From assembly GCA_015064285.1 (NCBI GenBank), contig SVSN01000014.1:1-55788 (forward strand): a DNA stretch of 55,788 nt, given 5' to 3'. Positions 21,314 to 35,360 of this stretch are shown here, piece by piece. The DNA is from Oscillospiraceae bacterium. GTDB taxonomy: Bacteria; Bacillota; Clostridia; Oscillospirales; CAG-272. Under the pieces are notes generated by a model, which was not told the origin of the DNA, searched no databases, and was given only the letters and a program-made list of their open reading frames with translations. Numbering within the stretch: position 1 is the first letter of the stretch; each line of letters begins with the position of its first letter. The position numbers were made by a program, and so were the translations under genes.

Positions 21314-21745
21314 ATGCCCATTTCCCATCTCGATGCCGATTCCTTCGGCGAATTCGTGGACAGCGATACCCCGGTGCTTGTGGATTTCTACGCCGAGTCC
21401 TGTCCCCATTCCCTTGCCATGACCACCGTACTGGATACCGTAGCCGCCGCACGCCCCGCCCTGCCTGTGGGCAAAGTCAACGTAGATACCGAACCGGATC
21501 TGACCAATGCCTACGTGGTCCGTACCACCCCCACCATCCTGCTGATGAAAAACGGAGACATCTCCTGCCGCTTTACCGGAGAAACAGGTGCAGATGTGCT
21601 CCTGTCCGCCATCGATCAGGAATACAGGGAATCCCCCGGACACGAAGCCCCCTCCATGCTCCATGACTACGTTCCGCACACTGCGCCCCGGATGTACGCC
21701 GACCCCTTCTTTGTTCCGGATCCGACAACGGGAATGTTCTATTGA
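21314..21745 (+). CDS. Thioredoxin-like protein with CxxS active site
   Basis: Thioredoxin-fold protein, cytoplasmic. Residues 1-100 follow the fold: PVLVDFYAES leads into C30-P-H-S33 where CGPC is expected, then VNVDTEPDLTNAYVVRTTPT with the cis-proline. The resolving cysteine is replaced by Ser, so it should work as a monothiol (isomerase- or glutathionylation-like) or as a binding protein. A 40-residue Pro-rich extension lacks a known domain. AAAGGAGAA precedes the ATG. It converges on the phage-like cluster and shares a terminator with it. Confidence 0.78.
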   Translation: MPISHLDADSFGEFVDSDTPVLVDFYAESCPHSLAMTTVLDTVAAARPALPVGKVNVDTEPDLTNAYVVRTTPTILLMKNGDISCRFTGETGADVLLSAIDQEYRESPGHEAPSMLHDYVPHTAPRMYADPFFVPDPTTGMFY

Positions 21746-21834: not shown

Positions 21835-22935
21835 TCACATGACCACCGCCATGGGGGATGCTTTTCTGCTGCCGATCTGCACGGCGGCCGCCCGGATCCA
21901 TTTTCCGTTTACACCTACATAAATGTTGGATTTTGCCACCTCCAGAAGGCCGCTGTCCGTCCAGGGGGAAGCCGTTCCGGCCGTATTTACCGCACATACA
22001 CGGTACCGTACCCCCTCCAGCCCCTCCGGCAGCGTATCCCGGAAACGGTCGGATGCACCGCTGTACAGGATGGAATACCCGGACAGGCTGCCGTCCTTTT
22101 CTTTACCGGCACGTTCCAGCCGGTAGGCTTCAATGGTGTTTACCGGGTCGTCCACCGCCGTCCAGCTGACCGTGACCTTGCCGCCGTCAATCAACAGGGT
22201 TGTACCGATCTGCGCCGGTGCCAGAGGAATGGCCGCATTCCGGCTCACACGCTGTACCGGGGTGACATACCGGTTCAGGGTGACAAAATCCTCCGTGTCG
22301 CTTCCGTCCCAGTCTGCCGGGAATGTGCGGTACTCCATCACCAGACAGACATCGCTGCCCAGCACTTCTTCCCCCAGCGTCACCCGGCAGGAGGTCATCC
22401 GTTTGTTTTCCGCCAGCGTCTGTTCCGTAAAGTCCGTTTCATCCGGCTTCCGCTGCCGCAGGTTTACGCCGGTGACCCAGCCGGTTCTGCCGTCACCCGG
22501 GGTCAGTTCCCATGTCAGTGTATGGGTATATCCGGCATACAGCACCGGTTCCATAACAAAGACAGGCAGGCTCTCGAAGCGGCGCTGGTACACCCGGATC
22601 ACATCGGTTTCGATAGCCCCGGAGGTCATGGTAAACCAGGAGCCCTTTTTCGCAATAAACACCCTGTCCTCTTCCGTATCCCAGGGAATTCTGCACACGG
22701 GTGTATCCCAGCCTTCCATGACATCGAAGGGCACGGTACCGCTGTCCAGCTGCAGGGTTACATAGCTGCGGATGTCCGCCGTTTCCGCCTCATCGGCCCA
22801 GCCCACCGTGATGTACAGATTCTCCGTCAGCCCGTCCCGATAGGCGGCATAGTGGAAGGACTTTCCGTCCAGCCGCAGGGCTATACCGGTATACCGGCCC
22901 ACACAGGTCAGTTTTTCCATTGCATAACAGCGCAT
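21835..22935 (-). CDS. Phage-type tail tip protein with fibronectin III-like region
   Basis: Last gene of the structural operon. The 366-residue product starts at 22935 behind GGAGG. It is beta-rich; residues about 235-335 look like fibronectin type III (VTVSWTAVDDPVNTIEAYRLERA, then YRVCAVNTAGTASPW). A C-terminal NIYVGVNGKWIRAAAVQIG resembles repeats found in tail fibre or adhesion proteins. Position after the Tal and collar-like genes suggests a host-contact protein. No enzymatic motif and no endolysin follows. Confidence 0.65.
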   Translation of the reverse strand: MRCYAMEKLTCVGRYTGIALRLDGKSFHYAAYRDGLTENLYITVGWADEAETADIRSYVTLQLDSGTVPFDVMEGWDTPVCRIPWDTEEDRVFIAKKGSWFTMTSGAIETDVIRVYQRRFESLPVFVMEPVLYAGYTHTLTWELTPGDGRTGWVTGVNLRQRKPDETDFTEQTLAENKRMTSCRVTLGEEVLGSDVCLVMEYRTFPADWDGSDTEDFVTLNRYVTPVQRVSRNAAIPLAPAQIGTTLLIDGGKVTVSWTAVDDPVNTIEAYRLERAGKEKDGSLSGYSILYSGASDRFRDTLPEGLEGVRYRVCAVNTAGTASPWTDSGLLEVAKSNIYVGVNGKWIRAAAVQIGSRKASPMAVVM

Positions 22936-22938
22936 ACA

Positions 22939-23655
22939 TTACGCCTCCTCTGCCAGCAGGATGAAGATTTCCCCCTCCGCCGGTACCTCCGGCAGGACCG
23001 TTCCGTAACGGATATTGCGTACGGCAGGAGCGCCTGTGGTATCGTTTTCCGCCTGCAGGACACCGGTCATTCTGCCGCCGGTTCTGGGCATCAACTCTTC
23101 CGCCGCCATACCGCCCACTGCCCCCGCATCCGCCGCATATGCCACAGACTGGAGACTGCTTACGGGAGAATCCACTGCCCCGCACACCGATTTGGAGAAA
23201 CGACGGTCGCTGATCATGGCATCCTCCACCGCTGCTGTGCCTGCCGGCACCTCCACACTGGCCAGCAGCAGATCCCACACTGTTTCACTGCGGGTAATCC
23301 CGGAAAAATCCTCTCCGAACAGGAGCACAAAACGGCCTTCCGTACGGTACAGACGAAGGATCACCTGATAGCGGTGTCCCGCTTCCACTGCCGCTGTAAC
23401 CGCTTCCTTCACCCATGCCATGTGGCCGTCAATCCAGCCGCAGCCGGGACGCACCGTCAGCGCCAGTCCATCTCCGGGCATCACCTGCAGATACCCATCC
23501 GAGGGACAGATCACCCCGTCGGAATAGAAGCATTTCATCATTCTGGCAAAAAACGCGGCATCCACCGCTTTGTCCCCTCTGGGGAACCCGTCTATCGTTT
23601 CCACCACCGACGTGGAGTCAAACATCCCGCCGGTTACGTTGATCGTTGTCTGCAT
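22939..23655 (-). CDS. Phage-type baseplate or receptor-binding protein
   Basis: 238 residues with an N-terminal motif TINVTGGMFDSTSVVETIDG and MPGDGLALTVRPGCGWIDGHMAW. This matches the layout of upper baseplate or appendage proteins encoded after the tail hub in siphophages of Firmicutes. A short PRTGGRMTGVLQAENDT segment resembles phage fibre repeats. AAAGGATAA precedes the ATG. The exact structural role is inferred from position. Confidence 0.7.
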   Translation of the reverse strand: MQTTINVTGGMFDSTSVVETIDGFPRGDKAVDAAFFARMMKCFYSDGVICPSDGYLQVMPGDGLALTVRPGCGWIDGHMAWVKEAVTAAVEAGHRYQVILRLYRTEGRFVLLFGEDFSGITRSETVWDLLLASVEVPAGTAAVEDAMISDRRFSKSVCGAVDSPVSSLQSVAYAADAGAVGGMAAEELMPRTGGRMTGVLQAENDTTGAPAVRNIRYGTVLPEVPAEGEIFILLAEEA

Positions 23656-23686
23656 ATTCTGTTATCCTTTCTCTCACACAGATATT

Positions 23687-24739
23687 TTACGCCAGCGCCG
23701 TTTTCAGCCGGATCACCGAATCCCCGAAACAGGGATACAGGCGCACCATGCCGCCCTCCTGCACCACATCCAGCGCCGTCAGACGGGCCGCGGTACGGAC
23801 AGCCGTGGCGGGGGAATAGATCTCGCAGATGTCCCCAAGCCCGTAATCCGTACCGAAACGGGGTTCCACATCATATTCGGCAATACAGCTCAGACGGTAC
23901 CGTGCGCCTGCCGCATCCAGAAGTGCCTCGCCCCGTCCGGTCAGCGCCGCCAGATAGGCTTCATTCGTATCATAATCCTCCGGGCGCAGGTCTGCAGCTT
24001 TTTTATAGCTCTCCCTGCGTTCTTCCGGTGTTTCCGCCCGGTCCACCGTTACCACGGTTCCGTCACCGCCTTCCACATAGATCCGGCTGTACGCATCCTC
24101 CCGGTACAGTTCCTCTTCCAGGCTGGCGATATTGCCGAATTCTTCACTGAAAATGGCACGGTTCACACCGGGTTCACTGTCCAGGCTTCTGTCCGTTCCC
24201 GTCACCAGCGCAAAGAAAAGTCTGCCGTCCTTCATGGTGATGGTATAGGAAGCGCCTGAAACGGCCAGAGTCTCGTGGATCCATTTGCCCAGGCGGTCAC
24301 CTGCCTTCATACTGTACTGTGCCGTCTCTCCCGCCACCGGCATCGCGTCCTCCACCAGCAGAGGCAGTCCCTCCGCCCAGTCTCCCAGTGCCGCCATAAC
24401 CGCTTCCGCTGCCGTACCGCTGTATACCGTATCCGCTGACGCTACCCGGTCGTACAGCAGACATTCCAGCAGCCGTCCTTCCAGCTGCAGCAGCCCGTCC
24501 CGGCAGATCAGGGTTTCAATCCGGCCGCAGCGTTCCCTGTCGCACAGATACACCGCCTGTGACGCCAGAGCCAGCAGCACCGCACTGTTTTCTCCACTGC
24601 CGGGCATTCCCTCCGTCAGGGGCAGCACCACAGTGAAGGAGCCGCATTCATGGTACCGCAGGGCCCACACCACCGAAACCGCCGTATCCACCGGCAGGGA
24701 AATAGCTGTAAAATTCCTGTCCAGAAAATACAGTTCCAT
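23687..24739 (-). CDS. Siphophage tail hub protein (Gp37-like, Tal)
   Basis: 350-residue tail-tip protein related to the ReqiPepy6 Gp37-like family, the N-terminal part of tail-associated lysin-type hubs. It begins MELYFLDRNFTAISLPVDTA and includes the characteristic YDTNEAYLAALTGRGEALL and YDVEPRFGTDYGLGDICEIY near the C-terminus. It lacks the C-terminal peptidase or lysozyme domain that Tal proteins often have. It starts behind GAGGAGG, 10 bases after the Dit gene. Confidence 0.82.
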   Translation of the reverse strand: MELYFLDRNFTAISLPVDTAVSVVWALRYHECGSFTVVLPLTEGMPGSGENSAVLLALASQAVYLCDRERCGRIETLICRDGLLQLEGRLLECLLYDRVASADTVYSGTAAEAVMAALGDWAEGLPLLVEDAMPVAGETAQYSMKAGDRLGKWIHETLAVSGASYTITMKDGRLFFALVTGTDRSLDSEPGVNRAIFSEEFGNIASLEEELYREDAYSRIYVEGGDGTVVTVDRAETPEERRESYKKAADLRPEDYDTNEAYLAALTGRGEALLDAAGARYRLSCIAEYDVEPRFGTDYGLGDICEIYSPATAVRTAARLTALDVVQEGGMVRLYPCFGDSVIRLKTALA

Positions 24740-24748
24740 AGTTCCTCC

Positions 24749-25633
24749 TCAGATTCCGTAGTACAGAGGCGTATAGGACAGGCCGGCAGAAAGGTATTCC
24801 GCACCGCTGTCCGCCGTCACACTGACCGAATTTTCGCCTGTCTGCAAAAGGAAAAAATCGCTGTCCCGGTGGAAGGTGAACCGTCTCTCTCCGTTGATCC
24901 AGAGGTTCCGGTACCGGGGACGGGTATCGATGAGGGCTTCCTGGCCGTCTTCCAATACCGTCTGCAGCCGTATGAAGGCGTCCCCGCTCCGCAGCACGGG
25001 ATTTTCCACCCGTCCGCCCGATGCCGTCAGCTTTGCCGTAAAGCCGCAGGGGGCGTCTCCCGGATTGATCACCGTTGCCGTGTCCGTAGTCCGGAAGTAT
25101 CCCGCCGCCATACCCGCGCCTTTCCAAAAATTCATGGGAAAGGTCAGAAGAGGCAGCGACTGCCAGAACTGTACTTCTTGCGGTTTTTCATCCCGGTAAA
25201 AGGGATCCGGTGCCAGAAACGGCAGATATACCTCTGTGGGCGTAAAGAAATTCGCCTGCCGGAACTCCGGTTTGCCGCAGGGGATCACACCGATACACCG
25301 GGTCACACCGGACAGGGTCACTTCCATCTCCAGTGTGTGCAGCGGGTTCATGATGGCGCAGACCCGGCGGCGCACCTCTCCCTCATCGCCATGTACTTCC
25401 GCCGTAATGCCCATATACCGTTCTCCGAACCGGCGGGTTACCGGATGGCCTCCCGTTCCGTCTGCATAGGGTTCTGTTTCCACAAACAGTTCCGTGGCGC
25501 CGAACCCTTCCAGTCCCTCTTCCAGCAGCCGCAGATGGGCGCCGGCCCCGGGAGAGATCAGCAGGGTACGCCCACTCTCCCCGTCGGTAATCCGGATTCT
25601 GTAGACTGCGCCGTCCTGTATTCCGTTCGTCAT
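24749..25633 (-). CDS. Distal tail protein (Dit, phage tail family)
   Basis: Ring protein joining tail tube and tip. In 294 residues it has an N-terminal belt domain (RRFGERYMGITAEV, RRRVCAIMNPLHTLEMEVTL) and a C-terminal galectin-like part (LWINGERRFTFHRDSDFFLLQTGENSVSV). The ATG at 25633 has GAGG five bases upstream; a GTG two codons earlier is also possible. It lies directly downstream of the tape measure gene, the standard order. Confidence 0.85.
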   Translation of the reverse strand: MTNGIQDGAVYRIRITDGESGRTLLISPGAGAHLRLLEEGLEGFGATELFVETEPYADGTGGHPVTRRFGERYMGITAEVHGDEGEVRRRVCAIMNPLHTLEMEVTLSGVTRCIGVIPCGKPEFRQANFFTPTEVYLPFLAPDPFYRDEKPQEVQFWQSLPLLTFPMNFWKGAGMAAGYFRTTDTATVINPGDAPCGFTAKLTASGGRVENPVLRSGDAFIRLQTVLEDGQEALIDTRPRYRNLWINGERRFTFHRDSDFFLLQTGENSVSVTADSGAEYLSAGLSYTPLYYGI

Positions 25634-25640
25634 AGTCACC

Positions 25641-26423
25641 TCATGTTCTCATCATCAGCTCGCTCTGCTGCCGGATGGCTCTGGCCGTCTGATACGGTGT
25701 GCCCGTGCCGGTACGCAGATAGATGTTTTGCTGCAGGGGACGGCTGTTTCCGCCGGATGCCGGTACTGCGGGCACGTGGATCCGACCTCCCGTTTCCGCC
25801 AGAGCCGCTTCAATGTAGCCGCTGCCGGCCAGAATGCCTTCCGCAATCCCCCGGGACAGCATCATGCCCACTTCGTCCCGCATTCTGGCGGAAGGGGAAT
25901 GGATCTGCAGCACTTCCTTGGCCGCCGCCATCGCCCGCTCCGCCACCGACGCCATGGCCGACACCACCGATCCGGCATTCGCATGAATCCCGGCGGCAAT
26001 ATTGCCCGTCATCCCGGCACCGATGGCGTGCCAGTCCCCCTGAAAAGCGTTTCTGGCATTCTGAGCAGTCTGTCCGGCCACATAGGCGATCTGTCCCGCC
26101 CCTGCGGTAAATCCACCGGTAAGAACAGCCGCCGCCCCGGAACCGGTTCCGCCCCAGTCCGCACTGCCAAAGGAAAGAACCGCCGCCTGTGCTGCTGTCT
26201 GTGCCGCTTCCGATGCCGTAAAAGTCAGTCCGTCCAGGGCGCCGGTCAGAGATCCCATAATCGCTTCCAGCGCCCCGTCGATCCCGGAACCTGCCACAGC
26301 GCCCGTAACCGCCGTCTGCAGCCGGACAGACAGGTTGGCCAGCTGTCCTTCCAGTGCCGTTACCGAAGCCTGAAACGCCCCGGTATCCAGCAGCGCCGCT
26401 ATGGTTATACTTCCGTCTGCCAT
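25641..26423 (-). CDS. Very short tape measure protein
   Basis: Identified as the tape measure by position (after Gp15, before Dit), Ala/Gly-rich helical composition, and the C-terminal motif IHSPSARMRDEVG (174-186) found at the end of many tape measure proteins. At 260 residues it is far below the 600-1800 usual in siphophages. Tail length scales with tape measure length (about 0.15 nm per residue), so a tail near 40 nm is expected. The frame is intact with an AGGAG start signal, and no remnants of a longer gene are seen. Confidence 0.78.
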   Translation of the reverse strand: MADGSITIAALLDTGAFQASVTALEGQLANLSVRLQTAVTGAVAGSGIDGALEAIMGSLTGALDGLTFTASEAAQTAAQAAVLSFGSADWGGTGSGAAAVLTGGFTAGAGQIAYVAGQTAQNARNAFQGDWHAIGAGMTGNIAAGIHANAGSVVSAMASVAERAMAAAKEVLQIHSPSARMRDEVGMMLSRGIAEGILAGSGYIEAALAETGGRIHVPAVPASGGNSRPLQQNIYLRTGTGTPYQTARAIRQQSELMMRT

Positions 26424-26983
26424 ATTCTGTCTTCTCCTTTCTCATGCCCATGCCTTTGCTTCCGGATCCGTACGGCCCCTCTCGCCTGCCGCAGCTTCCG
26501 CCGGAGTCCGTCATCCTGCACTTCGGTCAGATCCATGGTACGGAGTCTGACGGCCTGCATGAAGGGGGTATCCTCCGGAAGGGAAAAGAGCAGAATCATA
26601 AACTTCCACCAGTGCATACGCACCTCGGTCAGATCGATCCCATAGGCCAGCCGGAAGGAAGCGAAAATCCGGTCTCCGTCTGTTTCAAAATCGTATACCG
26701 GCTCTCTTTTTCCGCCGGACTGCGCCGGTCTTTTCCGTTCGGGATCCATAGCGTAGAAATCCAGAATGGCCAGGGTCAGTTCCTCCGGATCCACCCCCTC
26801 CGGAATCTTACGGCAGTACAGCCGCAGCAGCAGCGCCATTCTGTCCCCCTCCCGCAGATCCGGATCTTCCGCCAGCGCACCGGTGAGAAGGCCAAGCCGG
26901 TAATCCGTTTCCACCGGGATCTGTACGCCGCCCACCGTAACCGAGTCCGGCAGTCCTCCGGTCAGTATGGATCCGCCTCTCAT
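26405..26983 (-). CDS. Gp15-family phage tail protein (tail assembly chaperone)
   Basis: 192 residues matching the bacteriophage Gp15 family: YRLGLLTGALAEDPDL near 28-43, LLRLYCRKIPEGVDPEELTLAILDFY and YDFETDGDRIFASFRLAYGIDLTE with MHWWKFMILLFSLPEDT. The position between the tail tube and tape measure matches the second tail chaperone. It overlaps the preceding gene by ATGA and the tape measure gene by 19 bases, so translation is coupled. Confidence 0.85.
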   Translation of the reverse strand: MRGGSILTGGLPDSVTVGGVQIPVETDYRLGLLTGALAEDPDLREGDRMALLLRLYCRKIPEGVDPEELTLAILDFYAMDPERKRPAQSGGKREPVYDFETDGDRIFASFRLAYGIDLTEVRMHWWKFMILLFSLPEDTPFMQAVRLRTMDLTEVQDDGLRRKLRQARGAVRIRKQRHGHEKGEDRIWQTEV

Positions 26984-27360
26984 ACCGCCGGCTCCGTCTG
27001 CAGACCCAGTATCGCGGCTCTGGCCAGGTATTTTTCCTCCGCTTCTTTGCGCAGGCGGTTCAGCTCATCAATCTGGCCGTTGACAAAATCCATAAAGTCA
27101 ATATACGCTCTGGAGTAGGCTTCCGCACTGAGCGCCTTGCCGCACAGATCCGCACCGGCGCCGTCTCCGAAGATCTCGTCAAAGAATTCCTGCAGGATTC
27201 CGCAGTGGCAGGAAAGCAGATCATCCGCGTCCTGTTCACGGCGGAACCGGGACAGATTCGCCCGCAGTCCTTCCAGTGCGGCAAGCAGTCTGCCCATACA
27301 ACCCGCTTCACTGACATCAAAGGGGTAGGTTACGGTATTCCACGTCCATTGTTTGATCAT
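26980..27360 (-). CDS. Phage tail assembly chaperone-like protein
   Basis: 126 residues, mostly helical: MIKQWTWNTVTYPFDVSEAG followed by a long charged helix region (LRANLSRFRREQDADDLLSC, DFMDFVNGQIDELNRLRKEAEEKYLARAA). It takes the position of the first tail chaperone (gpG-like). The start is uncertain: an ATG at 27384 has a poorly spaced GGAG, and 27360 has AGGAG 15 bases upstream. Confidence 0.65.
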   Translation of the reverse strand: MIKQWTWNTVTYPFDVSEAGCMGRLLAALEGLRANLSRFRREQDADDLLSCHCGILQEFFDEIFGDGAGADLCGKALSAEAYSRAYIDFMDFVNGQIDELNRLRKEAEEKYLARAAILGLQTEPAV

Positions 27361-27452
27361 TTCTGGTTTCACGCTCCTTTTCATTCTCCGGCACCGGGGG
27401 ACAGAGTCTGTCTCCGTCCCCTGCCGGAATTTTCTGTTTTCCGCACCGGAAC

Positions 27453-27941
27453 TCAGTCTGCTGCGAATGTACCGGTGGAAACCACGAAGGTTCCGTTCAC
27501 CGGTGCGGAAATGGCCTTCAGCGTACCGGTGTACAGCAGGGTATCCGTCCCCTCGCCGCATTCATCCGGAATCACGGAGTAGGTGCGCACGGACGCTCTG
27601 CATACCCCGGCACTGTCGGTCTCGTCAAACAGATCCGCTGTGCAGATTTCCACCCATGCGCTGCTGCCGGTCAGTTCTCTGTCCGTGATCCGGCGCAGCT
27701 TTTCGATCACTGCATTGCCGGTAAACACTTCAAACTCATAATCCACCGTAGGCGCATACCCGGTCACGTCCGTACGCTTTACGCTTTCGTGTATGTAGCG
27801 TCTCTGGTAGCTTACCGCATTTTTGGATTCCATAAATTCCGTGAACCCTTCGCCGATCAGCGTCCACACAGGCGCATTCGCTGTACCTGTGTTCATATAG
27901 TGCCGTCTGTCCGAACGGTTCACAATTCCTGTTTCCGCCAT
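27453..27941 (-). CDS. Phage major tail (tube) protein
   Basis: 162 residues; beta-rich with EFMESKNAVSYQRRYIHESVKRTDVTGY, YEFEVFTGNAVIEKLRRI and a C-terminal GTLKAISAPVNGTFVVSTGTF, as in A118-like major tail proteins. AGAAAGGATAA precedes the ATG. Position between minor capsid 3 and the tail chaperones supports the call. Confidence 0.8.
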   Translation of the reverse strand: MAETGIVNRSDRRHYMNTGTANAPVWTLIGEGFTEFMESKNAVSYQRRYIHESVKRTDVTGYAPTVDYEFEVFTGNAVIEKLRRITDRELTGSSAWVEICTADLFDETDSAGVCRASVRTYSVIPDECGEGTDTLLYTGTLKAISAPVNGTFVVSTGTFAAD

Positions 27942-27971
27942 AGTTTATCCTTTCTTCTGGTTGTTCTTTCT

Positions 27972-28415
27972 TCAGCCGTCCGTTTTCTGTCTGTACCGTA
28001 CGGTAAACGCTGCTCTGTATTCCTCGGTTCCGTCCGGTTCCACGGAGGATTTTGCCGGAAGCGCCGTGGGTTCACAGCAGCCGTAGACCCTGCAGGTATC
28101 CGGAGAAGGGGCAAAAGTTCCCAGATACCGGGTCAGCGCCGCAAACCATTCCAGTGCCTCCAGCCCGTCCGCCGGGGTGTGGGCCGTCCGCAGAAATACC
28201 GCAAAGGGGATCTCCCCGATAAAGGAACCGTCCACATAGGAACGCACCTTCACCGGTCCCGAAAGCGCCGTTACCGTTCCGGCAGGCAGAGCTTTTCCGG
28301 CAGGCATCCCGGGCAGACCGCCTTCTGCGGATTCCGGCAGGAACAGACAGGGTGCACCTTCCCAGGCATTGATGTGACCGCAGATTTTCCGGATCACGGA
28401 TATTTCCTCAAACAT
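27972..28415 (-). CDS. Minor capsid 3-like / tail terminator protein
   Basis: 147 residues, MFEEISVIRKICGHINAW at the start and a C-terminal AAFTVRYRQKTDG strand. Position just before the tail tube gene and size fit the minor capsid 3 family (tail terminator role). It overlaps the previous gene by eight bases, behind AAAGGAGA. Confidence 0.68.
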   Translation of the reverse strand: MFEEISVIRKICGHINAWEGAPCLFLPESAEGGLPGMPAGKALPAGTVTALSGPVKVRSYVDGSFIGEIPFAVFLRTAHTPADGLEALEWFAALTRYLGTFAPSPDTCRVYGCCEPTALPAKSSVEPDGTEEYRAAFTVRYRQKTDG

Positions 28416-28776
28416 TTGAAGTCTCCTTTCCCGGCCCGCTGTCCGTCAGCACCTGTGCCGTTTTTCTCCGCCATTCGTCCATCGAGACAGCCCTTGCCGC
28501 CTCAAACCACTGGGCGCAGGCCTGGGGATGCTTTTCCTTCCGGAAAGGACGGCGGCTGTAATAGCATTTTGCCGCGTGTCCCGCCGTCCAGGTTACAAGC
28601 CCCACGGAAGCACCGCCGGACCGGCAGAGTTCCCCGGTATCATAGGGCACATACGGTTCCGAAGACGCCAGCACCGCCTGCGCCAGGGCCAGTTTCGCCT
28701 GGGGTATCCGGGAGAGAATCCGGTCTCCGATCCCGGCGGTGTCGATCTTCACGCCCAGTTTCAGCATACTGCTCAT
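28408..28776 (-). CDS. Minor capsid 2-like protein
   Basis: 122 residues from the ATG at 28776 (GGAGGG upstream). Features: LKLGVKIDTAGIGDRILSRI, YVPYDTGELCRSG (a motif shared by HK97 gp10-like and minor capsid 2 proteins) and KCYYSRRPFRKEKHPQACAQWFEAAR. Likely part of the head-tail joint. Confidence 0.75.
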   Translation of the reverse strand: MSSMLKLGVKIDTAGIGDRILSRIPQAKLALAQAVLASSEPYVPYDTGELCRSGGASVGLVTWTAGHAAKCYYSRRPFRKEKHPQACAQWFEAARAVSMDEWRRKTAQVLTDSGPGKETSNV

Positions 28777-28790
28777 CTGCCGTTCCCTCC

Positions 28791-29147
28791 TTATTCCGCC
28801 GTAATGGTCCAGCCTCTGCCAAGGCCGATTCCGTCTGTGGGAGGCGTCACGCTCCGCACACGCCATACCCTCGTGTCTCCCGGTTCTGTCTGTACACCAC
28901 AGGCAATCCGGTCACCGGGGCAGATGGCGGCCTCCTGCAGGGTTGTGAACCGTCCTGCGCTGTCCAGCAGACAGGTGTGTCTGTCCCGGATCCACAGCGT
29001 CAGCCGGTTCTGTCCCAGCCCTTCGCCGTTGTCGCCTGCCCGGAAGGAAGATACCGCGCCATGGCAGACATACCGTCGGAAAGCGGGTCTGTAATCCCCG
29101 TCCCAGGTACCGTCCCGGCAGAAGAATGTCCATGTACTGTTTTCCAT
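28791..29147 (-). CDS. Minor capsid 1-like / head closure protein
   Basis: 118 residues starting at 29147 behind GAGGTG (MENSTWTFFCRDGTWDG). A longer open frame to 29429 overlaps the previous gene and is rejected. Beta-rich with LTLWIRDRHTCLLDSAGRFTT and GDTRVWRVRSVTPPTDG. Called from position and size between connector and minor capsid 2. Confidence 0.68.
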   Translation of the reverse strand: MENSTWTFFCRDGTWDGDYRPAFRRYVCHGAVSSFRAGDNGEGLGQNRLTLWIRDRHTCLLDSAGRFTTLQEAAICPGDRIACGVQTEPGDTRVWRVRSVTPPTDGIGLGRGWTITAE

Positions 29148-29157
29148 GCGTTTCACC

Positions 29158-29490
29158 TCAGATCCACTGCTGCAGCGCACCCGCCGCACGGAGAAATCCC
29201 ACAGCACCCGGCGCCACAGGCATACCGCCCACCCGGACAACGCTGTCCGCCAGCTGCATACGGTTTCCGCCGGCTGTTTCGGATGCCACAGGCCGGTCCA
29301 GGCCGGAATCCAGCTGGGCACAGACGGCCATCTGAAAAGCCTTCTGCCCGGCAGGATCCAGATCTTCCGGGGTGCGGGGATACAGCAGTGCCAGAATGGT
29401 CTCCCGGGCACGGGGCAGTCCCACGGCAAACAGCGCCGCCGGCATCACGCCTCCGTACACGGACTGATAAAAGCCGTAGTCCACCATCAT
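29158..29490 (-). CDS. Head-tail connector protein
   Basis: 110 residues; helical N-terminus MMVDYGFYQSVYGGVMPAAL with RARETILALLYPRTPEDLD and a Gly-rich C-terminus. AAAGGAGCGG precedes the ATG, 12 bases after the capsid gene. The adaptor role is inferred from order and size. Confidence 0.65.
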   Translation of the reverse strand: MMVDYGFYQSVYGGVMPAALFAVGLPRARETILALLYPRTPEDLDPAGQKAFQMAVCAQLDSGLDRPVASETAGGNRMQLADSVVRVGGMPVAPGAVGFLRAAGALQQWI

Positions 29491-29502
29491 GTTCCCGCTC
29501 CT

Positions 29503-30600
29503 TTACGCCATGTAACGTACAGCCAGTTCGGGGTACACTGCCTTGAAGCCGTAGAGCACGTCCATGGACAGCATTTCGCGCTTGTAGCGGATATCGTAGC
29601 CTCTGACTACGCGGAGAGAAATGCCGTTGTAGGTGGTCACATAGGATTCCACACCGGCGGGCGCGGACAGGGGACGGGTCACGAAGGCAAAGGCATGGGG
29701 ATGGAACACCAGATTGGCTTCATGACTGGCTGCCACCGTCACAGCGGTACCGGCACCGGCGGTCATGGCGGGAGAAACCTTTACAGTCACATCGGAAGCA
29801 CCTGCCGCAGCATCTTCGCAAACGGTGTAGGTCTTGCCGTCCACGGTGAGGATATCCCCCTTCACCAGTGTCTTACCGCTCAGGGAAGAACCGGACAGCA
29901 CACAGGTATCTGCATTTTCCACGGCGTTCTTTACCGTCAGGGAAGTGCCTGCCAGGGTACCGGCGGTATGCTGACAGATGGCCTGGCTCATGTAGTGATC
30001 CACACCGAAGACCTTGCCGATGGCACCGGTACGCAGGGCAGTGGTGTCCCCGCACTTTTCCGCATTGACCACAGCGGGAATCTGCTTCAGCTTGGCGGTG
30101 CACAGGGGGCTCCACACAGCGGCACGGCGGTCAGTGGGTACCTTGGCCAGATCCAGTCCGTAGGAAGCATCCGCCAGATCGTCCAGACCGTCGGGCGCGG
30201 TACCGGCAGTACCCATGGTCTGGTATACGTCTCTGTACAGTGCCAGACCGTCACGGTTGATCTTTTCCGCCAGGGCTGCGGCTGCGGGTTCAATGAACAC
30301 ACGGCGGATGGTTTCGTCGTCATAGGCATCCCAGGTGCTGATGGATGCGTCCACGGTAGCCAGTGTATCCAGCCTCACTTCCACCGCTTCTTCTACAATG
30401 GGCCTGGTGGTTACACCGTCTGCGGAAGAAAACGCCTCCGCTTCCAGCTTTACAGGACGTCTGATCAGCACAGAATCTCCCTGTCTGGCCGCCGCAGCCT
30501 CGCCGCTGTCACGGTATACCAGATTCGGGAACACCAGATTGTCGATCAGCTTCGGCAGTGTTTCTCTTGCGATCTGCTTTACAGAAATAATGTTGCTCAT
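29503..30600 (-). CDS. Major capsid protein (P22 coat-like)
   Basis: 365 residues from the ATG at 30600 (AGAAAGGA upstream). It begins MSNIISVKQIARETLPKLID and has DSGEAAAARQGDSVLIRRPV, TWDAYDDETIRRVFIEPAAA and a middle immunoglobulin-like insertion (GDILTVDGKTYTVCEDAAAG). The C-terminus is VRGYDIRYKREMLSMDVLYGFKAVYPELAVR. This pattern is that of P22-type coat proteins with the HK97 fold. A separate scaffold gene precedes it and no prohead protease is seen, consistent with scaffold-dependent assembly. Confidence 0.85.
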   Translation of the reverse strand: MSNIISVKQIARETLPKLIDNLVFPNLVYRDSGEAAAARQGDSVLIRRPVKLEAEAFSSADGVTTRPIVEEAVEVRLDTLATVDASISTWDAYDDETIRRVFIEPAAAALAEKINRDGLALYRDVYQTMGTAGTAPDGLDDLADASYGLDLAKVPTDRRAAVWSPLCTAKLKQIPAVVNAEKCGDTTALRTGAIGKVFGVDHYMSQAICQHTAGTLAGTSLTVKNAVENADTCVLSGSSLSGKTLVKGDILTVDGKTYTVCEDAAAGASDVTVKVSPAMTAGAGTAVTVAASHEANLVFHPHAFAFVTRPLSAPAGVESYVTTYNGISLRVVRGYDIRYKREMLSMDVLYGFKAVYPELAVRYMA

Positions 30601-30773
30601 ATCGTTTTGTTCCTTTCTTATTTTCCTGCAAGCGCACTTGTCAGGTTTACGATTCTGTCGGGTGCATGGGTGTCCGGAGCCGGCCGGGGTACTGCAGCTG
30701 CGGCACTGTTTTTTTATGGGATACACACCCTGTGTCTGCCCGCCGCCTGAGCCCCGGGTCTGTCCGAAAACAC

Positions 30774-31181
30774 TCAGCACCGTTTCAGTATCATATCATA
30801 ATAATCCCTGTCGGACAGGGTATCAGGATCTCTGCGGCTTCCCCCGTGCACCGCACCGCTGGAGCCTTCCCGGCCGCTGGGTGTCATCTGTCCGAATCCG
30901 AACAGATAGGGGTCGGAGGTCATCAGCCGCTTTACGGAGTCCTCCACACCGGAGACGCCGTTTTCATCTGCTTCCACCCCGGACAGATCCAGTGCCTTTG
31001 CTGCCAGCGCCGGGTTTCTGGCACCCATTCTGGCCAGCACATACCGCACCTCCCCGTCAATCCGCACCTGCCGGAGCTCCTTTTCGTGTTCCGCTCTCAG
31101 TGTTTCCAGAACACTTTCCGCCGTTTTTTCTCCGGCATCGGTTTGCGGCAGATCCGGCTGCATTTCTTTTGTTTCGTCCAT
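30774..31181 (-). CDS. Phage scaffold-like protein
   Basis: 135 residues from the ATG at 31181 (AAAGGAGA upstream). Acidic N-terminus, coiled-coil-like KTAESVLETLRAEHEKELRQVRIDG, then LARMGARNPALAAKALDLSG, matching Gp20-type scaffolding proteins. Located between portal and capsid genes as expected. The 170 bases that follow before the capsid gene hold no gene. Confidence 0.72.
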   Translation of the reverse strand: MDETKEMQPDLPQTDAGEKTAESVLETLRAEHEKELRQVRIDGEVRYVLARMGARNPALAAKALDLSGVEADENGVSGVEDSVKRLMTSDPYLFGFGQMTPSGREGSSGAVHGGSRRDPDTLSDRDYYDMILKRC

Positions 31182-31219
31182 GCAAGTTTCTCCTTTTCTG
31201 TGAAATTCCTCAGGGCAGG

Positions 31220-32683
31220 TCACCGGTCTTCTGCGGCATACCAGCGGCGGCGAAACCGATCGGGATCCATCAGACCGGCCTCCACTTCCCGCAGGTCTCT
31301 GGCTCTTTCCGACTCCGTATCGATGAAATAACTGTCATCGTAGCGGACACGGATAGGAGATGCCGCACAGGGTTTTCCCAGCAGTGCCGCCGACAGCCAG
31401 AGCAGGGGACGAACCACATCCTGCAGGTATGCCGTCACGTTCTGGGCATGCTTGGCGCAGTTCTGGCGCATATCCTGCCGTTCGCCGGTATACTGGGTGG
31501 CGGTCAGCTGTGCCTTTCCCTGCACACCGGAGAACAGATAATGTCTGGTTCCCAGTCCGCAGCGGAACGCCAGATAGTCCAGCTGTGCCTGTACGGCGTC
31601 CCGGTTTTCCTCCGTACGCAGGGAGGGATTGTGCTCCTCAATCATGGGTGCGTCCGCCAGATCCGTGTCGCCCACCGTCATAAACAGCTGCTGTGCCACG
31701 TCGTCCGGGGTATACAGATTGCCCGCATCGTCACGGCGGATCAGGGACTGGTTGATGAACACCTTTTTTCCGCCCAGACGCAGGTCACGGCAGAAGTTGT
31801 TGAACGCCAGATCCACACCCCGCAGGCAGTCCAGGGCATCCGCATACACAGACTGCCCCAGTCCGCCGGCACCGTCCGCCGTATTCTGGATGTTGGGCAT
31901 CAGCATGGCAAAGAAGGGATAGGGACAGCCGGTATCGATCTCTCTTTCGGGCATATCCGGCAGCCGTACTTCCGTGAGTCCCCCTTCCTCTCTGCGGAAA
32001 TACCGGTTGTGGATCACATAGGTTCCGCCCCGGCGCACATGGACTTCCAGATAGTCATAGGTTTTCCCGCGCAGTGTGATCTCCGACACAAATGCCGCCT
32101 CGGTGATTCTGCCGCTTTCCACAGAAATGGGTACGATCCGGGAAGCGTCCACGAAATCAAACCAGATCCGTACGGGATTTCCGCCGGCCGTCCATCCGTG
32201 TACCCCTGCACAGGCAGGAATCAGATTCCGCAGCAGCAGAGCATCTTCCGTTTCCTCCGCCGGCTTTTCGCCGCTCACCGCCGCTTTCCATTCGGATTTA
32301 CGGATTCCGTCCACCCGGAGCAGGCAGGCTCCTGTCCCCACGGCAAAGGCTTTCTCCACCAGATAGTTGCTCCGGCGCCAGAAGTCCCCCTCCGACAGCA
32401 CTCTCTCCAGCCAGGCTTCCGCCGCTTCATCCCCCAGCCGGATCTCCGTTCTGTCGTTCAGCAGCAGCGCCGCCCAGTCCTCACAGACCTTCTTCGCCAT
32501 CCGCATCCCGTACATTCTTCTGCGTACCGGATGCCCGAATGCCGCGTTTTCCAGATAACTGTGGAATCCGTCCACATCCCCGCGCCACCAGTCCTCCCAG
32601 CGCCGTACCTTCTCATACATCCCTGCCGTCACTGCGCAGCCGTAGGACTCCCGGATCCGCTCCAGCAAATCTTCTCGTATCAT
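31220..32683 (-). CDS. Phage portal protein (SPP1/A118-like)
   Basis: 487-residue dodecameric portal through which DNA enters the capsid. Features: RRRMYGMRMAKKVCEDWAAL, YLVEKAFAVGTGACLLRVDG, IRIWF..VDASRIVPIS, GLGQSVYADALDCLRGVDLA and GLGTRHYLFSGVQGKAQLTA, typical of Gram-positive siphophage portals. AGGAG precedes the ATG. It follows the large terminase gene with a 63-base gap containing a family B-like CTTACAGAGGTTTTGTTG stretch. Confidence 0.88.
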   Translation of the reverse strand: MIREDLLERIRESYGCAVTAGMYEKVRRWEDWWRGDVDGFHSYLENAAFGHPVRRRMYGMRMAKKVCEDWAALLLNDRTEIRLGDEAAEAWLERVLSEGDFWRRSNYLVEKAFAVGTGACLLRVDGIRKSEWKAAVSGEKPAEETEDALLLRNLIPACAGVHGWTAGGNPVRIWFDFVDASRIVPISVESGRITEAAFVSEITLRGKTYDYLEVHVRRGGTYVIHNRYFRREEGGLTEVRLPDMPEREIDTGCPYPFFAMLMPNIQNTADGAGGLGQSVYADALDCLRGVDLAFNNFCRDLRLGGKKVFINQSLIRRDDAGNLYTPDDVAQQLFMTVGDTDLADAPMIEEHNPSLRTEENRDAVQAQLDYLAFRCGLGTRHYLFSGVQGKAQLTATQYTGERQDMRQNCAKHAQNVTAYLQDVVRPLLWLSAALLGKPCAASPIRVRYDDSYFIDTESERARDLREVEAGLMDPDRFRRRWYAAEDR

Positions 32684-32746
32684 TTGGTTTTCTCCTTTTG
32701 CTTACAGAGGTTTTGTTGTACTTTGCTTTTGGAAGAGGGGCGCCGC

Positions 32747-34018
32747 TTACACCTTGCCCATGTAGCGCTCCACTGCATACTCAAAGGCATCCAGCACGTC
32801 AATATCGGAGGTGAAGTCGTCTTTCCGGCGGTCTTCCCCTTCCACCCAGACAGCCTGGGCAAGCCCTTCGGCAAGGCGGGGACAACGATCCGTGATATGG
32901 AACCGGCCGCTGCTCATCAGGGACAGCACAAAGGTGATCCGGTCCAGGATGGGGCGTTTGGCACAGTCCAGAATCTGCACAGGGTCATTTGTCATGGCCC
33001 GGCGCAGGCCATTGATGAGATACTGGGCTTCGCTGTCGCAGAACGCATATTTCAGCGGCACCCCCGGCGCTGCGGCCCGTACCTTCTGACAGAACGCTGC
33101 GAACTCACGTTGGATTCTGTCCGGATCGATCTCCCCCTTGCCGCCCGCAATGGCATGGTCCAGCAGCGCAAGAATCCCGCCCCTCTCCGGGAACCCCACC
33201 GCCACAAAAGTGGTTTTGGAACGGTTGCCGCCGAAGTCCACACCGATGTTGATGTGCCGCAGGGGAGGCAGCGCTTCCGCAGACAGGGTAAACTTCGCCC
33301 GGTCATCGGCAAATACACGATAGATCAGCCCCTCCGCCGCACACCGCTGTCCCAGGATGTCTCTCCGGTACCAGACCGAATCCGGTTCGTACTGGGCCGC
33401 AATCTCCGCCAGCCGCTCTTCCGTTATCACCGGATTGTCCCGGATGGTGAAGTGACCGTAGTTGTAAAACCGCTCCCCCGGATCCGCAGCATACCGGTCC
33501 AGATAGTCTTTATAAATGGAAGCGCCTGGGCTGGTGGGGTTCAGATCCCAGAAAACCTTCCGCCACCGGGCCGCCAGCTGCCGGTTGAAGGCCTCCTTTA
33601 TAAAGGAATCGTGGTGATGGTTGATCTCCGTAGCGATCCACATACCGTAGGAATTCCCCCGGATCCGCTGGTATGCGTCTGCGTTTCTCCCCCCGGCAAA
33701 GATCACCACCCGCTCCCCCACAGGTGTGGTCACATACAGACATTCGTTGTCCCGGAACCGCCCCCAGCGGCACCGTCCGGCAAAAATCCGCTCCAGCCCC
33801 ATCCCGTTGCAGTCCCCCAGATTCAGCTTGGCATTGCCGATGGTAGAACCGGTAGCCAGATGGATCCGGTCGGGGCTTCTGTCCAGACAGGCGGCGAACA
33901 CAAACACATTGTCCACTGTCTTTCCCGCCCTGACCGCCCCCTCCGCCACATTGATCACGCAGTCCATGGCACGCCGCATGTACGCCCGGTGTTTCTCTCC
34001 GAACCGGAACTCACCCAT
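32747..34018 (-). CDS. terL: Terminase large subunit
   Basis: DNA-packaging motor and nuclease. The 423 residues start at 34018 behind GGAGGAG; the small-subunit gene ends at 34011, an eight-base overlap. The ATPase shows Walker A GAVRAGKT (27-34) and a Walker B-like MWIATEIN (126-133) where E131 replaces the usual D-E pair by T-E. The RNase H-like nuclease keeps its acids: D261 (NIGVDFGG), D328 (FCDSEAQ) and the D401-D410 cluster (DFTSDIDVLD). All motor and nuclease parts therefore look intact. Homologues of this type package by headful or cos mechanisms; which applies cannot be told. Confidence 0.88.
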   Translation of the reverse strand: MGEFRFGEKHRAYMRRAMDCVINVAEGAVRAGKTVDNVFVFAACLDRSPDRIHLATGSTIGNAKLNLGDCNGMGLERIFAGRCRWGRFRDNECLYVTTPVGERVVIFAGGRNADAYQRIRGNSYGMWIATEINHHHDSFIKEAFNRQLAARWRKVFWDLNPTSPGASIYKDYLDRYAADPGERFYNYGHFTIRDNPVITEERLAEIAAQYEPDSVWYRRDILGQRCAAEGLIYRVFADDRAKFTLSAEALPPLRHINIGVDFGGNRSKTTFVAVGFPERGGILALLDHAIAGGKGEIDPDRIQREFAAFCQKVRAAAPGVPLKYAFCDSEAQYLINGLRRAMTNDPVQILDCAKRPILDRITFVLSLMSSGRFHITDRCPRLAEGLAQAVWVEGEDRRKDDFTSDIDVLDAFEYAVERYMGKV

Positions 34019-34448
34019 GCCGCTCCTCCTCCGGCGCCATGGACTCAGCCGCTTCCGATGGTTCTGACAGCTCAGCCGGTTCCTTCGGTACGCTTCCCGC
34101 CGTCTCCAGGATTTCCCGGCGCAGCATGGCAACCTCCCTGTCTCCCGGCATCCCGCTTACAGAAGCAGGTGCCCTCTCCCGGCACAGATCAAAATACAGC
34201 TTCATGGCCGGTATGCTGCCTTCCTTGGTCAGTCCCAGCAGAGATGACCACACCCACGGCGCACACATCTCCGCCATCGCCCGGGCCAGACTGACAATAT
34301 CCCCGGGCATCCCCCCGTCCCGCAGCCACCGCTCCCAGGTCTCCCCGTCGATTCCCAGCTTTTCCCGCAGGGATGTCAGGGACTCTCCGCCGGCAAATCC
34401 CGCTTCCAGAATCTCCCGCAGCAGCTCCGTCTGTTTCTCCAGCTCCAC
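34011..34448 (-). CDS. terS: Terminase small subunit-like protein
   Basis: 145 residues from a GTG at 34448 with a strong GGAGGAG seven bases upstream. An in-frame ATG at 34634 would run through the operator region and is rejected. The N-terminal half (LREILEAGFAGGESLTSLRE, then GETWERWLRDG) resembles the helix-turn-helix DNA-recognition part of small terminases. The middle (IPAMKLYFDLCRERA) is an oligomerisation-like helix and the tail is acidic. First gene of the structural operon. Confidence 0.72.
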   Translation of the reverse strand: MELEKQTELLREILEAGFAGGESLTSLREKLGIDGETWERWLRDGGMPGDIVSLARAMAEMCAPWVWSSLLGLTKEGSIPAMKLYFDLCRERAPASVSGMPGDREVAMLRREILETAGSVPKEPAELSEPSEAAESMAPEEERHG

Positions 34449-34469
34449 GTTTTTTCTCCTCCCCCAAGC

Positions 34470-34485
34470 AAGAACTTGTGTTCTT
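34470..34485. promoter_or_regulatory. LexA-type SOS box, perfect palindrome
   Basis: AAGAACTTGTGTTCTT holds GAAC-N4-GTTC (34472-34483), the core of the Firmicute LexA (DinR) operator. It lies just downstream of the -10 of the structural operon, where a bound repressor would block transcription. Confidence 0.65.
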
Positions 34486-34497
34486 TTTTCTGACAAT

Positions 34498-34527
34498 AGT
34501 ATACCATGAACCGCCCTTTTCTGTCGT
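34498..34527 (-). promoter_or_regulatory. Putative promoter of the phage-like structural operon
   Basis: Minus strand: weak -35 ACGACA (34527-34522), 18-base spacer, -10 TATACT (34503-34498). Confidence 0.5.
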
Positions 34528-34604
34528 CCGCAGTTTTTCCGGCGAATTTCCGCCTCCGCCGTCCATCCCCGTTTTCCAGTATTTTCCTGTATTTTTCCAC
34601 TCCG

Positions 34605-34626
34605 AAAAAGAACATTAGTTCTTTTT
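34605..34626. promoter_or_regulatory. Second LexA-type SOS box with extended arms
   Basis: AAAAAGAACATTAGTTCTTTTT: nine-base arms flank ATTA, with the GAAC-N4-GTTC core at 34610-34621. It sits between the divergent terminase operon and regulator genes. Confidence 0.65.
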
Positions 34627-34709
34627 ATTTTCATATTATTGTTACAAAGAATTCACAGCTGTCCGACAAAATCCCCCCTGCAGACACCGCTTTCCCCGGA
34701 CTGCCCCTA

Positions 34710-34738
34710 TTGACAAACAAATGTTCTTATGGTATAAT
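34710..34738 (+). promoter_or_regulatory. Strong promoter of the regulator pair with overlapping near-SOS boxes
   Basis: Perfect TTGACA (34710-34715), 17-base spacer, perfect TATAAT (34733-34738). The spacer contains AAAC-AAAT-GTTC (34715-34726), and AAAC-AAAC-GTTCG follows at 34749-34761. Each differs from GAAC-N4-GTTC by one base. Confidence 0.8.
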
Positions 34739-34788
34739 ACAGAAAAATAAACAAACGTTCGTTTTTGTTGCTGTAAGGAGGGGAACAG

Positions 34789-35043
34789 ATGCGGATTGCA
34801 GGAAGATGCCGGCGATGCGGAGATGAGGTGCTGGCCGGGGACTTCTGTTACCGGATCGGCGACGACTACTGGTGCAGGGACTGTGTCAGCCGGGCCGCCG
34901 TCATTGCCGCAGAAGAAAAAAGGCCCCCGGCACTGCGGATCCTGGGGGAAAGACGGATCGGACAGTACCGGGAACGGGAAATCACAGTATGGAGAAGCCA
35001 AGGAAAGGAAGGTGAAAACACCCTATGCCGAAGAAACCGGTAA
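34789..35043 (+). CDS. Small zinc-ribbon-like protein
   Basis: 84 residues behind AAGGAGG. CRRCGDEVLAGDFCYRI followed by WCRDCVSRA gives paired CxxC motifs (C7, C10, C29, C32) that should bind zinc, as in LIM- or ribbon-like folds. The C-terminus is basic. Function unknown; transcribed from a strong promoter divergently from the structural operon and overlapping the next gene by 19 bases. Confidence 0.7.
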   Translation: MRIAGRCRRCGDEVLAGDFCYRIGDDYWCRDCVSRAAVIAAEEKRPPALRILGERRIGQYREREITVWRSQGKEGENTLCRRNR

Positions 35044-35360
35044 AGAAAGTAACCGATCTGAAGGAAGCAAAAACGGAAGCCATGAGCTGGCTCGGGAAAA
35101 TGTCCTGTATGGAGAATGCTCTCCTGTACGGAGAAATCGGCGGGGAAACCCGGGAAAAGCTGGAATACCGGCTGCACTGGCTCCGGCGGGGGCTGGCCGT
35201 TCTGTCCGAGGAGGAGCGGCGGATGATCCTGTGGATCGCGGAGGGCTGCAGCGCAGAGGAGCTGTGCGAGCTGTGTGCCCGGGAGAAATCTTCAGTCTAC
35301 GCCATCCGGAAACGGGCCATGGATAAATTTGCGCTGGCGCTGTTCGGCCGTCTGCGCTGA
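35025..35360 (+). CDS. Sigma-70 region 4-like regulator
   Basis: 111 residues. The C-terminal half is a helix-turn-helix of the sigma region 4 type: LSEEERRMILWIAEGCSAEE then LCELCAREKSSVYAIRKRAM. Such small proteins act as late-gene activators in Firmicute phages (ArpU-like and related). A basic N-terminus MPKKPVKKVTDLKEAKTEA precedes it. By position it is the likely activator of the divergent structural operon; this is an inference. A terminator follows directly. Confidence 0.7.
   Translation: MPKKPVKKVTDLKEAKTEAMSWLGKMSCMENALLYGEIGGETREKLEYRLHWLRRGLAVLSEEERRMILWIAEGCSAEELCELCAREKSSVYAIRKRAMDKFALALFGRLR

Follow-up and report, generated by a model that had tools for sequence, protein, structure and literature searches.

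The window analysed here is a stretch of 55,788 nucleotides (contig SVSN01000014.1) from an Oscillospiraceae bacterium, an incomplete ruminant-gut Clostridia metagenome-assembled genome (MAG; 3.2 Mb in 134 contigs, 73% complete) whose close kin are Clostridia MAGs from water buffalo rectum and goat cecum. Between 21835 and 34448 its minus strand carries a 12.6 kb cluster of 17 intact virion genes, arranged as a single operon from terS to the tail fibre, which probably represents an element resembling a gene transfer agent (GTA). The set is full, all frames are open and the genes follow the canonical head-packaging-tail order; family matches bear out the initial annotation on these points. That annotation extended the minus-strand run to 35360. 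The run ends at 34448, and a divergent plus-strand pair of overlapping genes, probably regulatory and previously missed, lies between terS and the MFS gene. Several of the virion gene names below rest on position and not on a family match.

34011..34448, minus strand: terS, small terminase, 145 amino acids (aa); phrog_24579 (E 8e-4), position and synteny
32747..34018, minus: terL, large terminase, 423 aa; phrog_2 (9e-31), PDB 5oea (1e-11), conserved residues
31220..32683, minus: portal, 487 aa; phrog_533 (9e-83)
30774..31181, minus: capsid scaffold; PF06810 (4e-12, for a longer call in the same frame)
29503..30600, minus: major capsid protein of P22 coat type, 365 aa; PF11651 (5e-42), PDB P22 gp5 by profile
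29158..29490, minus: head-tail adaptor; phrog_541 (7e-8)
28791..29147, minus: probable second head-tail connector, 118 aa; position and conservation only, without a PHROG match
28408..28776, minus: minor capsid/head protein; PF11114 (3e-10), phrog_556
27972..28415, minus: probable tail completion/terminator protein; by position, without a family match, like the stretch before the tube domain in genome G004
27453..27941, minus: probable major tail tube protein; phrog_3099 (2e-42, a nameless family), position
26980..27360, minus: tail assembly chaperone candidate; phrog_4450 (a nameless family), position
26405..26983, minus: Gp15-family protein; PF06854 (1e-30)
25641..26423, minus: very short tape measure protein, 260 aa; C-terminal parts of tape-measure PHROGs, phrog_1686 (1e-16)
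24749..25633, minus: distal tail protein Dit; PF22768 (4e-9), phrog_33
23687..24739, minus: Tal/Gp37-like tail tip protein; PF14594 (1e-24)
22939..23655, minus: tail fibre/baseplate-like structural protein; phrog_9534 (1e-20)
21835..22935, minus: terminal fibre-like protein with a Hoc-like match; phrog_10993 (1e-11)
34449..34788, no strand: divergent promoter region with four LexA-type boxes, starting at 34472, 34610, 34715 and 34749
34789..35043, plus: small CxxC...CxxC zinc-finger-like protein, 84 aa; all 10 sequences aligned keep the four Cys
35025..35360, plus: sigma-70 region-4-like helix-turn-helix (HTH) protein, 111 aa; Sigma70_r4_2 (E 7e-4, under the curated cut-off), phrog_36 'transcriptional regulator' (6e-3)

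The terS gene is best called as 34011-34448. The large terminase had been said to keep its Walker A and nuclease acids, and the alignment agrees: G27, G32-K33-T34 (Walker A), E131, D261, D328 and D410 are conserved in at least 97% of 32 TerL sequences, and TerL aligns to the solved terminase structure 5oea. We take these conserved ATPase and nuclease residues to be the catalytic ones.

The cluster recurs in the window's genus (g1) and in two further genera (g24 and g53). Capsid homologues occur, one copy each, in 16 of 25 g1 genomes, in 7 of 9 g53 genomes and, as strong matches, in 7 of 12 g24 genomes, with one further weak match in the latter; presence is not universal, in part because the MAGs are incomplete. 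Contig ends and tail losses apart, the gene order is the same in a further 15 g1 genomes as well as in g24 and g53. Across the family, 33 of 295 genomes sampled gave a portal match, and the matches were strong in g1, g24 and g53. The order-wide capsid profile matched 19 of 394 genomes (two f1, sixteen f10 and one weak f9), and nine of the ten listed genomes of g100, which like g147 is a genus at f10 loci, matched it. Twelve loci were examined from the order-wide matches, eleven of f10 and one of f9; at all eleven f10 loci (L227-L238 except L235) terL, portal and capsid genes are clustered compactly, and two of these loci also show a holin match. In four g100 loci the genes upstream resemble one another in length, at about 410 and 340 aa, a comparison by size. 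The 339-aa upstream protein of L227 belongs to glycosyl hydrolase family 18 and might be a wall-cutting enzyme.

Host-type genes flank the cluster. On its left in the window come thioredoxin, a protein for which Pfam gave no match at 0.001, cyclophilin, RuvX and a PfkB kinase, and MFS, EamA, MatE and DUF1934 proteins follow on the right past the regulatory pair; of the flanks first named, thioredoxin thus holds, and the MFS gene is separated from terS by the pair. All ten flanking window proteins are host-type or without family assignment, and Rfam searches gave no match. For the relatives, up to three called genes of at least 60 aa were taken from each side in 29 genomes (121 proteins), with matches listed for 25 of 71 PHROG and 25 of 75 Pfam families. 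Among the matches listed, no family of integrases, recombinases, phage repressors or replication proteins occurs, which accords with the earlier statement that integrase, replication and repressor genes are missing beside the cluster; rare mobile-gene exceptions are possible because single-protein families fall mostly outside the matches listed. The common flank families among them are UvrA, NrdR, transporters, pyruvate kinase, barstar and thioredoxin, and the transcription regulators and terS that also appear belong to the cluster itself.

Conserved flanks and vertical inheritance had been named as checks on the GTA-like reading, and both are observed. Host flanks recur within genera. In g53, all seven loci have gene c19 upstream of terS, at a distance of about 7.6 kb in G209 and in the other six directly beside it or with one gene between, and five of the seven have NrdR upstream too. 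G008 and G015 have both cluster flanks in common, as have G002 and G013; UvrA follows the cluster in five g1 genomes, and the DMT-MATE-DUF1934 genes ahead of terS in G009 and G016 lie beyond the regulators in the window. A tree from a concatenation of seven virion proteins is congruent with rpoB (Mantel r 0.969, 20 genomes of three genera, none of 5000 permutations as high), also within g1 alone (r 0.956, 11 genomes, 0 of 5000). This comparison covers 20 of 28 cluster genomes; rpoB frames were picked by short rpoB motifs, which dropped six of 32 genomes (G019, G294, G021, G169, G020 and G001), G004, G014 and G023 had no rpoB match, and G009 and G308 gave fragments only. Tree congruence and flanks show, at the level of sequence, that the element is inherited with the chromosome.

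Some neighbours recur in their own right. The thioredoxin gene (window 21314-21745) is found beside the terminal fibre gene in the closest relatives (L057, L059, L055, L239, L240 and L241), and in some closest relatives a pyridine-nucleotide oxidoreductase like thioredoxin reductase (c50; PF07992 in L059) is likewise placed beside the fibre gene. Barstar-family proteins (PF01337; 3 of the 121 flanking proteins) stand just after the fibre gene at L066:7595-8263, a confirmed copy, and L059:13869-14225, and are duplicated in G004.

The ratio of nonsynonymous to synonymous substitutions (dN/dS) is well under 1 in the virion genes, as expected if intact frames reflect selection, which the initial annotation had suggested. 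Values range from 0.054 to 0.542 over eight pairs (NG86; one value not computable owing to saturation) and are rough because dS is high in many pairs. They are lowest mostly in capsid, tube and terL and higher in the fibre and connector genes, with the capsid of G002/G013 (0.30) as an exception. The terminal fibre gene is among the fastest-evolving (0.25-0.52 in the five pairs having it) and shows the highest dN among virion genes in four of these five. Adjacent host genes give 0 to 0.38 in a dS range like that of the virion genes. Frameshifts in sister genomes had been proposed as a sign of decay; the 30 capsid genes with strong matches in g1, g53 and g24 are all free of internal stops. A decaying prophage remnant without function would account for the fact that no early or integration genes are recognised and that the cluster is absent from some relatives. 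Frames that stay open across species, dN/dS of 0.05-0.54, regulatory sites that are kept (see below) and tree congruence over three genera make such a remnant extremely improbable.

In the capsid tree, g1 and g24 together form a clade (SH-aLRT 100), as do g53 (100) and f10 (99), and viral rows fall among g1+g24 and g53. The order of these groups is not settled by this quick method without bootstrap, so that domestication may have happened once, twice or three times. The IMG/VR contigs compared from the g1 and g53 clades, 25 in number, hold the same virion genes, five unassigned genes and, where long enough, host flanks including thioredoxin, MATE-DUF1934 and NrdR. Judged by their genes, these rows are copies of the same inherited clusters. 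IMG/VR thus lists fragments of an inherited cluster as viral (L050-L056, L239-L258), which leads to false virus counts. Other viral contigs have capsids 51-53% identical. Where the tape measure would be expected, eight of them carry a gene of 725-1339 aa and L261 one of just 214 aa, and in most the scaffold is preceded by an additional gene of about 360-545 aa; these genes are named by their size and position. The existence of these longer contigs and the full virion set would suit a cluster that belongs to an active phage or satellite, one with early genes at another site or dependent on a helper. We regard this as very unlikely given one copy per genome, host flanks common within genera and the rpoB congruence, and most such viral contigs differ from the cluster by the extra pre-scaffold gene and the large gene at the tape-measure place (L261 excepted).

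Host-type regulation, initially a guess, gains support from LexA-type boxes. The zinc-finger gene has a promoter with a 12/12 match to TTGACA-17-TATAAT at 34710-34738 on the plus strand; one box spans its spacer, one lies just downstream and two more are found towards terS, which has a weaker promoter-like site at 34527-34498 on the minus strand. Upstream of terS or sig4 such boxes occur in 22 of 34 regions, compared with 17 of 289 for the remaining genes at these loci (Fisher 2e-15), the 34 regions not being independent because terS and sig4 windows overlap in some genomes; counted by genome, 16 of 24 have one. The genus lexA promoters show GAAC-N4-GTTT in 16 of 17 loci (the 17 best lexA matches). 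In G017, G011, G005, G004, G009, G002, G013 and contig L054 a box lies within the terS core-promoter spacer and is followed by a -10-like hexamer, and four further g24 loci have two boxes each ahead of the zinc-finger gene. All four g147 loci carry a box ahead of terS (background 14 of 290); g80 and g142 loci have none. The sites themselves are observed, and LexA presumably binds them.

The zinc-finger-like protein has no Pfam match. For the sigma-4-like protein (14-row alignment) the structure model reached pLDDT 88, and its structure matches to HTH/sigma-4 proteins are weak, none at E 0.001 or better; we propose it as the late activator of the virion operon. In the flank scan, whose 121 proteins include nine sig4 rows, phrog_36 'transcriptional regulator' has nine members and phrog_248 'transcriptional activator' eight. 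The pair is divergent from terS in the window (34449-35360) and co-directional in sister contig L054 (1510-3201), where a PHP-domain-like gene stands beside it; the difference in orientation suggests a local inversion or rearrangement.

The tail appears to be undergoing stepwise reduction. Ten further g1 genomes have tape measure proteins of 236-262 aa; those of G011 and G003 have 113-121 aa and those of G194 and G313 of g24 have 147 aa. The call of 123 aa in G001 is doubtful because that genome also gives a match over the full length. At the usual figure of about 0.15 nm of tail per tape-measure residue, the tail encoded in the window would be near 40 nm long. Neither a tape measure nor a Gp15 gene was found in G004, G005, G152, G294, G308, G047 and G314, where capsid and Dit genes are 1.4-2.0 kb apart as against 2.9-5.2 kb in the other 22 loci. 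The loci concerned are L062, L066, L083, L084, L206, L207 and L208, two of g1 and five of g24, and the losses in the two lineages appear to be independent. Missing tape-measure calls in G209, G285 and G076 of g53 look like a calling gap because the distance there is 3.6-5.2 kb. In some of the seven genomes without a tape measure the tail-completion and tube domains appear to be fused, as in G004 (where the C-terminal half matches phrog_3099 at 2e-16 and has the fitting position); the corresponding G308 protein has no family match, and a structure model of the fusion was unusable (pLDDT 47). Terminase, portal, scaffold and capsid are retained throughout, also where tail genes are lost. Tailocins keep the tail and lose capsid and terminase; the pattern here is the opposite, and we rejected that class.

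The main rival is a PBSX-like killer particle, SOS-induced and packing host DNA, which would be kept for killing competitors and would not deliver DNA. LexA-type boxes, a terminal fibre with the highest dN in most pairs and the behaviour of PBSX as given in PMC12946183 could all be expected of it. Retention of terminase, portal and capsid alongside a tail that in two lineages is very short or has lost its tape measure suits a DNA container better, and we consider the killer particle unlikely, albeit less so than the other alternatives.

Several observations weigh against a GTA-like element. Nine of 25 g1 genomes have no capsid match, so that the sporadic presence named at the outset as evidence for a decaying prophage is partly seen. 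It fits losses: G007, G018 and G022, three of the nine, form one rpoB clade next to cluster-bearing G010/G016, for which reason loss of the cluster is likelier than gain. Marker gene c25, which six relatives have near the cluster's fibre end, is present in six of the nine, in none with the cluster beside it (the G021 contig is just 6.9 kb), and gave no match in G012, G019 and G024. The cluster has to some extent been relocated between species, the window and its closest kin G017 having only the left flank in common, and within g53 its congruence with rpoB is weaker (r 0.63, 6 genomes, 46 of 5000). A box of the above form was not found in 8 of 24 genomes (G003, G008, G015, G016, G010, G169, G242 and G127) and is absent from four of five g100 loci. 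Lysis genes are missing from the cluster of the window, as first stated, and g1 clusters have neither amidase nor holin; the statement fails for sister genus g24, where the same cluster ends in an amidase in all seven loci, with a recognised holin in four (PF05105 at 1.5e-36 in G308). A PF05105 holin occurs elsewhere in 11 of 25 g1 genomes and is not found in the window's incomplete genome (G000); we see no link to the g1 cluster because some of the 11 lack it and G000 lacks the holin. Finally, the carbon-saving signature of GTAs, as described in PMC7360931, was tried and left unused: capsids are no different from phage homologues (GC over 0.46, 26 vs 10, p 0.63; regression t -1.6). In 22 of 23 genomes the cluster proteins use less carbon than those of the host flanks; GC of the cluster is higher than in host flanks in 22 of 23, and GC at third codon positions is not different.

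In the definition given in PMC9662315, a GTA is a Caudoviricete-derived particle with mostly random host DNA, is endogenised and cannot fully package its own genome; vertical inheritance or co-diversification and delivery of the encapsidated DNA to other cells are likewise included. Here, particle proteins are Caudoviricete-derived by family and structure-profile matches, recurring host flanks within genera and single copies indicate full endogenisation, and the Mantel correlation, lower inside g53, indicates co-diversification with the host. We file the cluster as GTA-like and not as a proven GTA, a reading supported by the features of the definition that sequence can address. It is probably a domesticated siphophage module, kept by the bacterium as an SOS-inducible GTA-like particle factory. 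More tentatively, and with a chance somewhat short of even, it may belong to an old GTA-like lineage of gut Clostridia, spanning at least two families, with LexA-controlled core promoters and pared towards an almost tail-less DNA carrier. If so, DNA damage would trigger the handing of repair templates or genes to neighbours.

In the undamaged cell, LexA would occupy the core-promoter boxes of the zinc-finger/sigma-4 pair and of terS. DNA damage would remove LexA, and the sigma-4-like protein, perhaps with its zinc-finger partner, would then drive the 17-gene virion operon. Terminase, portal, scaffold and P22-type capsid may fill small heads with cell DNA, which is suggested because no replication or integration genes are recognised with the element, and the very short tail of Dit, Tal and fibres would bind recipients. 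In g24 the linked amidase, mostly together with the holin, would release the particles; in g1 any lysis genes used would be unlinked to the cluster.

To our knowledge, few GTAs outside Alphaproteobacteria have a known gene cluster. The present one adds a vertically inherited GTA-like lineage with readable regulation. Its LexA-type sites lead to the prediction that DNA-damaging drugs would trigger particle release in livestock gut bacteria. Stepwise tail reduction among living species makes it testable which parts a GTA needs. Contigs of this kind stand in the IMG/VR virus catalogue yet look like host genes.

The listings from searches of the open-access PMC literature gave no description of this cluster. 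The Clostridioides phage CP103806 and contigs L259, L260, L264, L265, L267 and L281 (27-37 kb, of which 20-21 kb were examined) have a like structural order, with terL up to 53% and capsid up to 53% identical to those of the cluster; they differ in that the gene in the tape-measure position is larger and an additional gene precedes the scaffold. Integrase, replication and amidase genes are annotated in CP103806. Closest in kind is FpGTA (2026), which, as described in PMC12946183, anticipates the general idea in gut Clostridia: it occurs in all 12 Faecalibacterium genomes studied, with a compact terS-terL-portal-scaffold-capsid operon, a reduced or missing tail and no replication genes. The same paper describes two operons, with lysis genes (holin and endolysin) in the second, and demonstrated particles with 8-9 kb of packaged DNA. 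The cluster has one operon, a siphovirus-type tail in most members, LexA-type boxes and the zinc-finger/sigma-4 pair, and is known from its genes; the likeness is one of description. A 16S probe for Faecalibacterium matched none of ten g100 genomes, which may lack 16S genes or be another genus. New here are the single-operon architecture, the LexA-type sites, the zinc-finger/sigma-4 pair and the stepwise tail loss.

RcGTA and its relatives (Rhodogtaviriformidae) likewise combine a virion gene cluster with vertical inheritance, according to PMC9662315. They belong to Alphaproteobacteria and the cluster to Clostridia, and the comparison is by description. Capsid type and regulators of RcGTA are presumably different from those of the cluster. 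BhGTA/VSH-1 of Brachyspira has one structural cluster of 16.3 kb, against 12.6 kb here (same source). Its host is of a different phylum, and it was likewise compared by description. PBSX of Bacillus resembles the cluster as a damage-induced defective phage of a Gram-positive host with a sigma-like late regulator; it is larger, with a longer tape measure and its own phage repressor. Unlike in PBSX, the boxes of the cluster resemble those of host lexA promoters.

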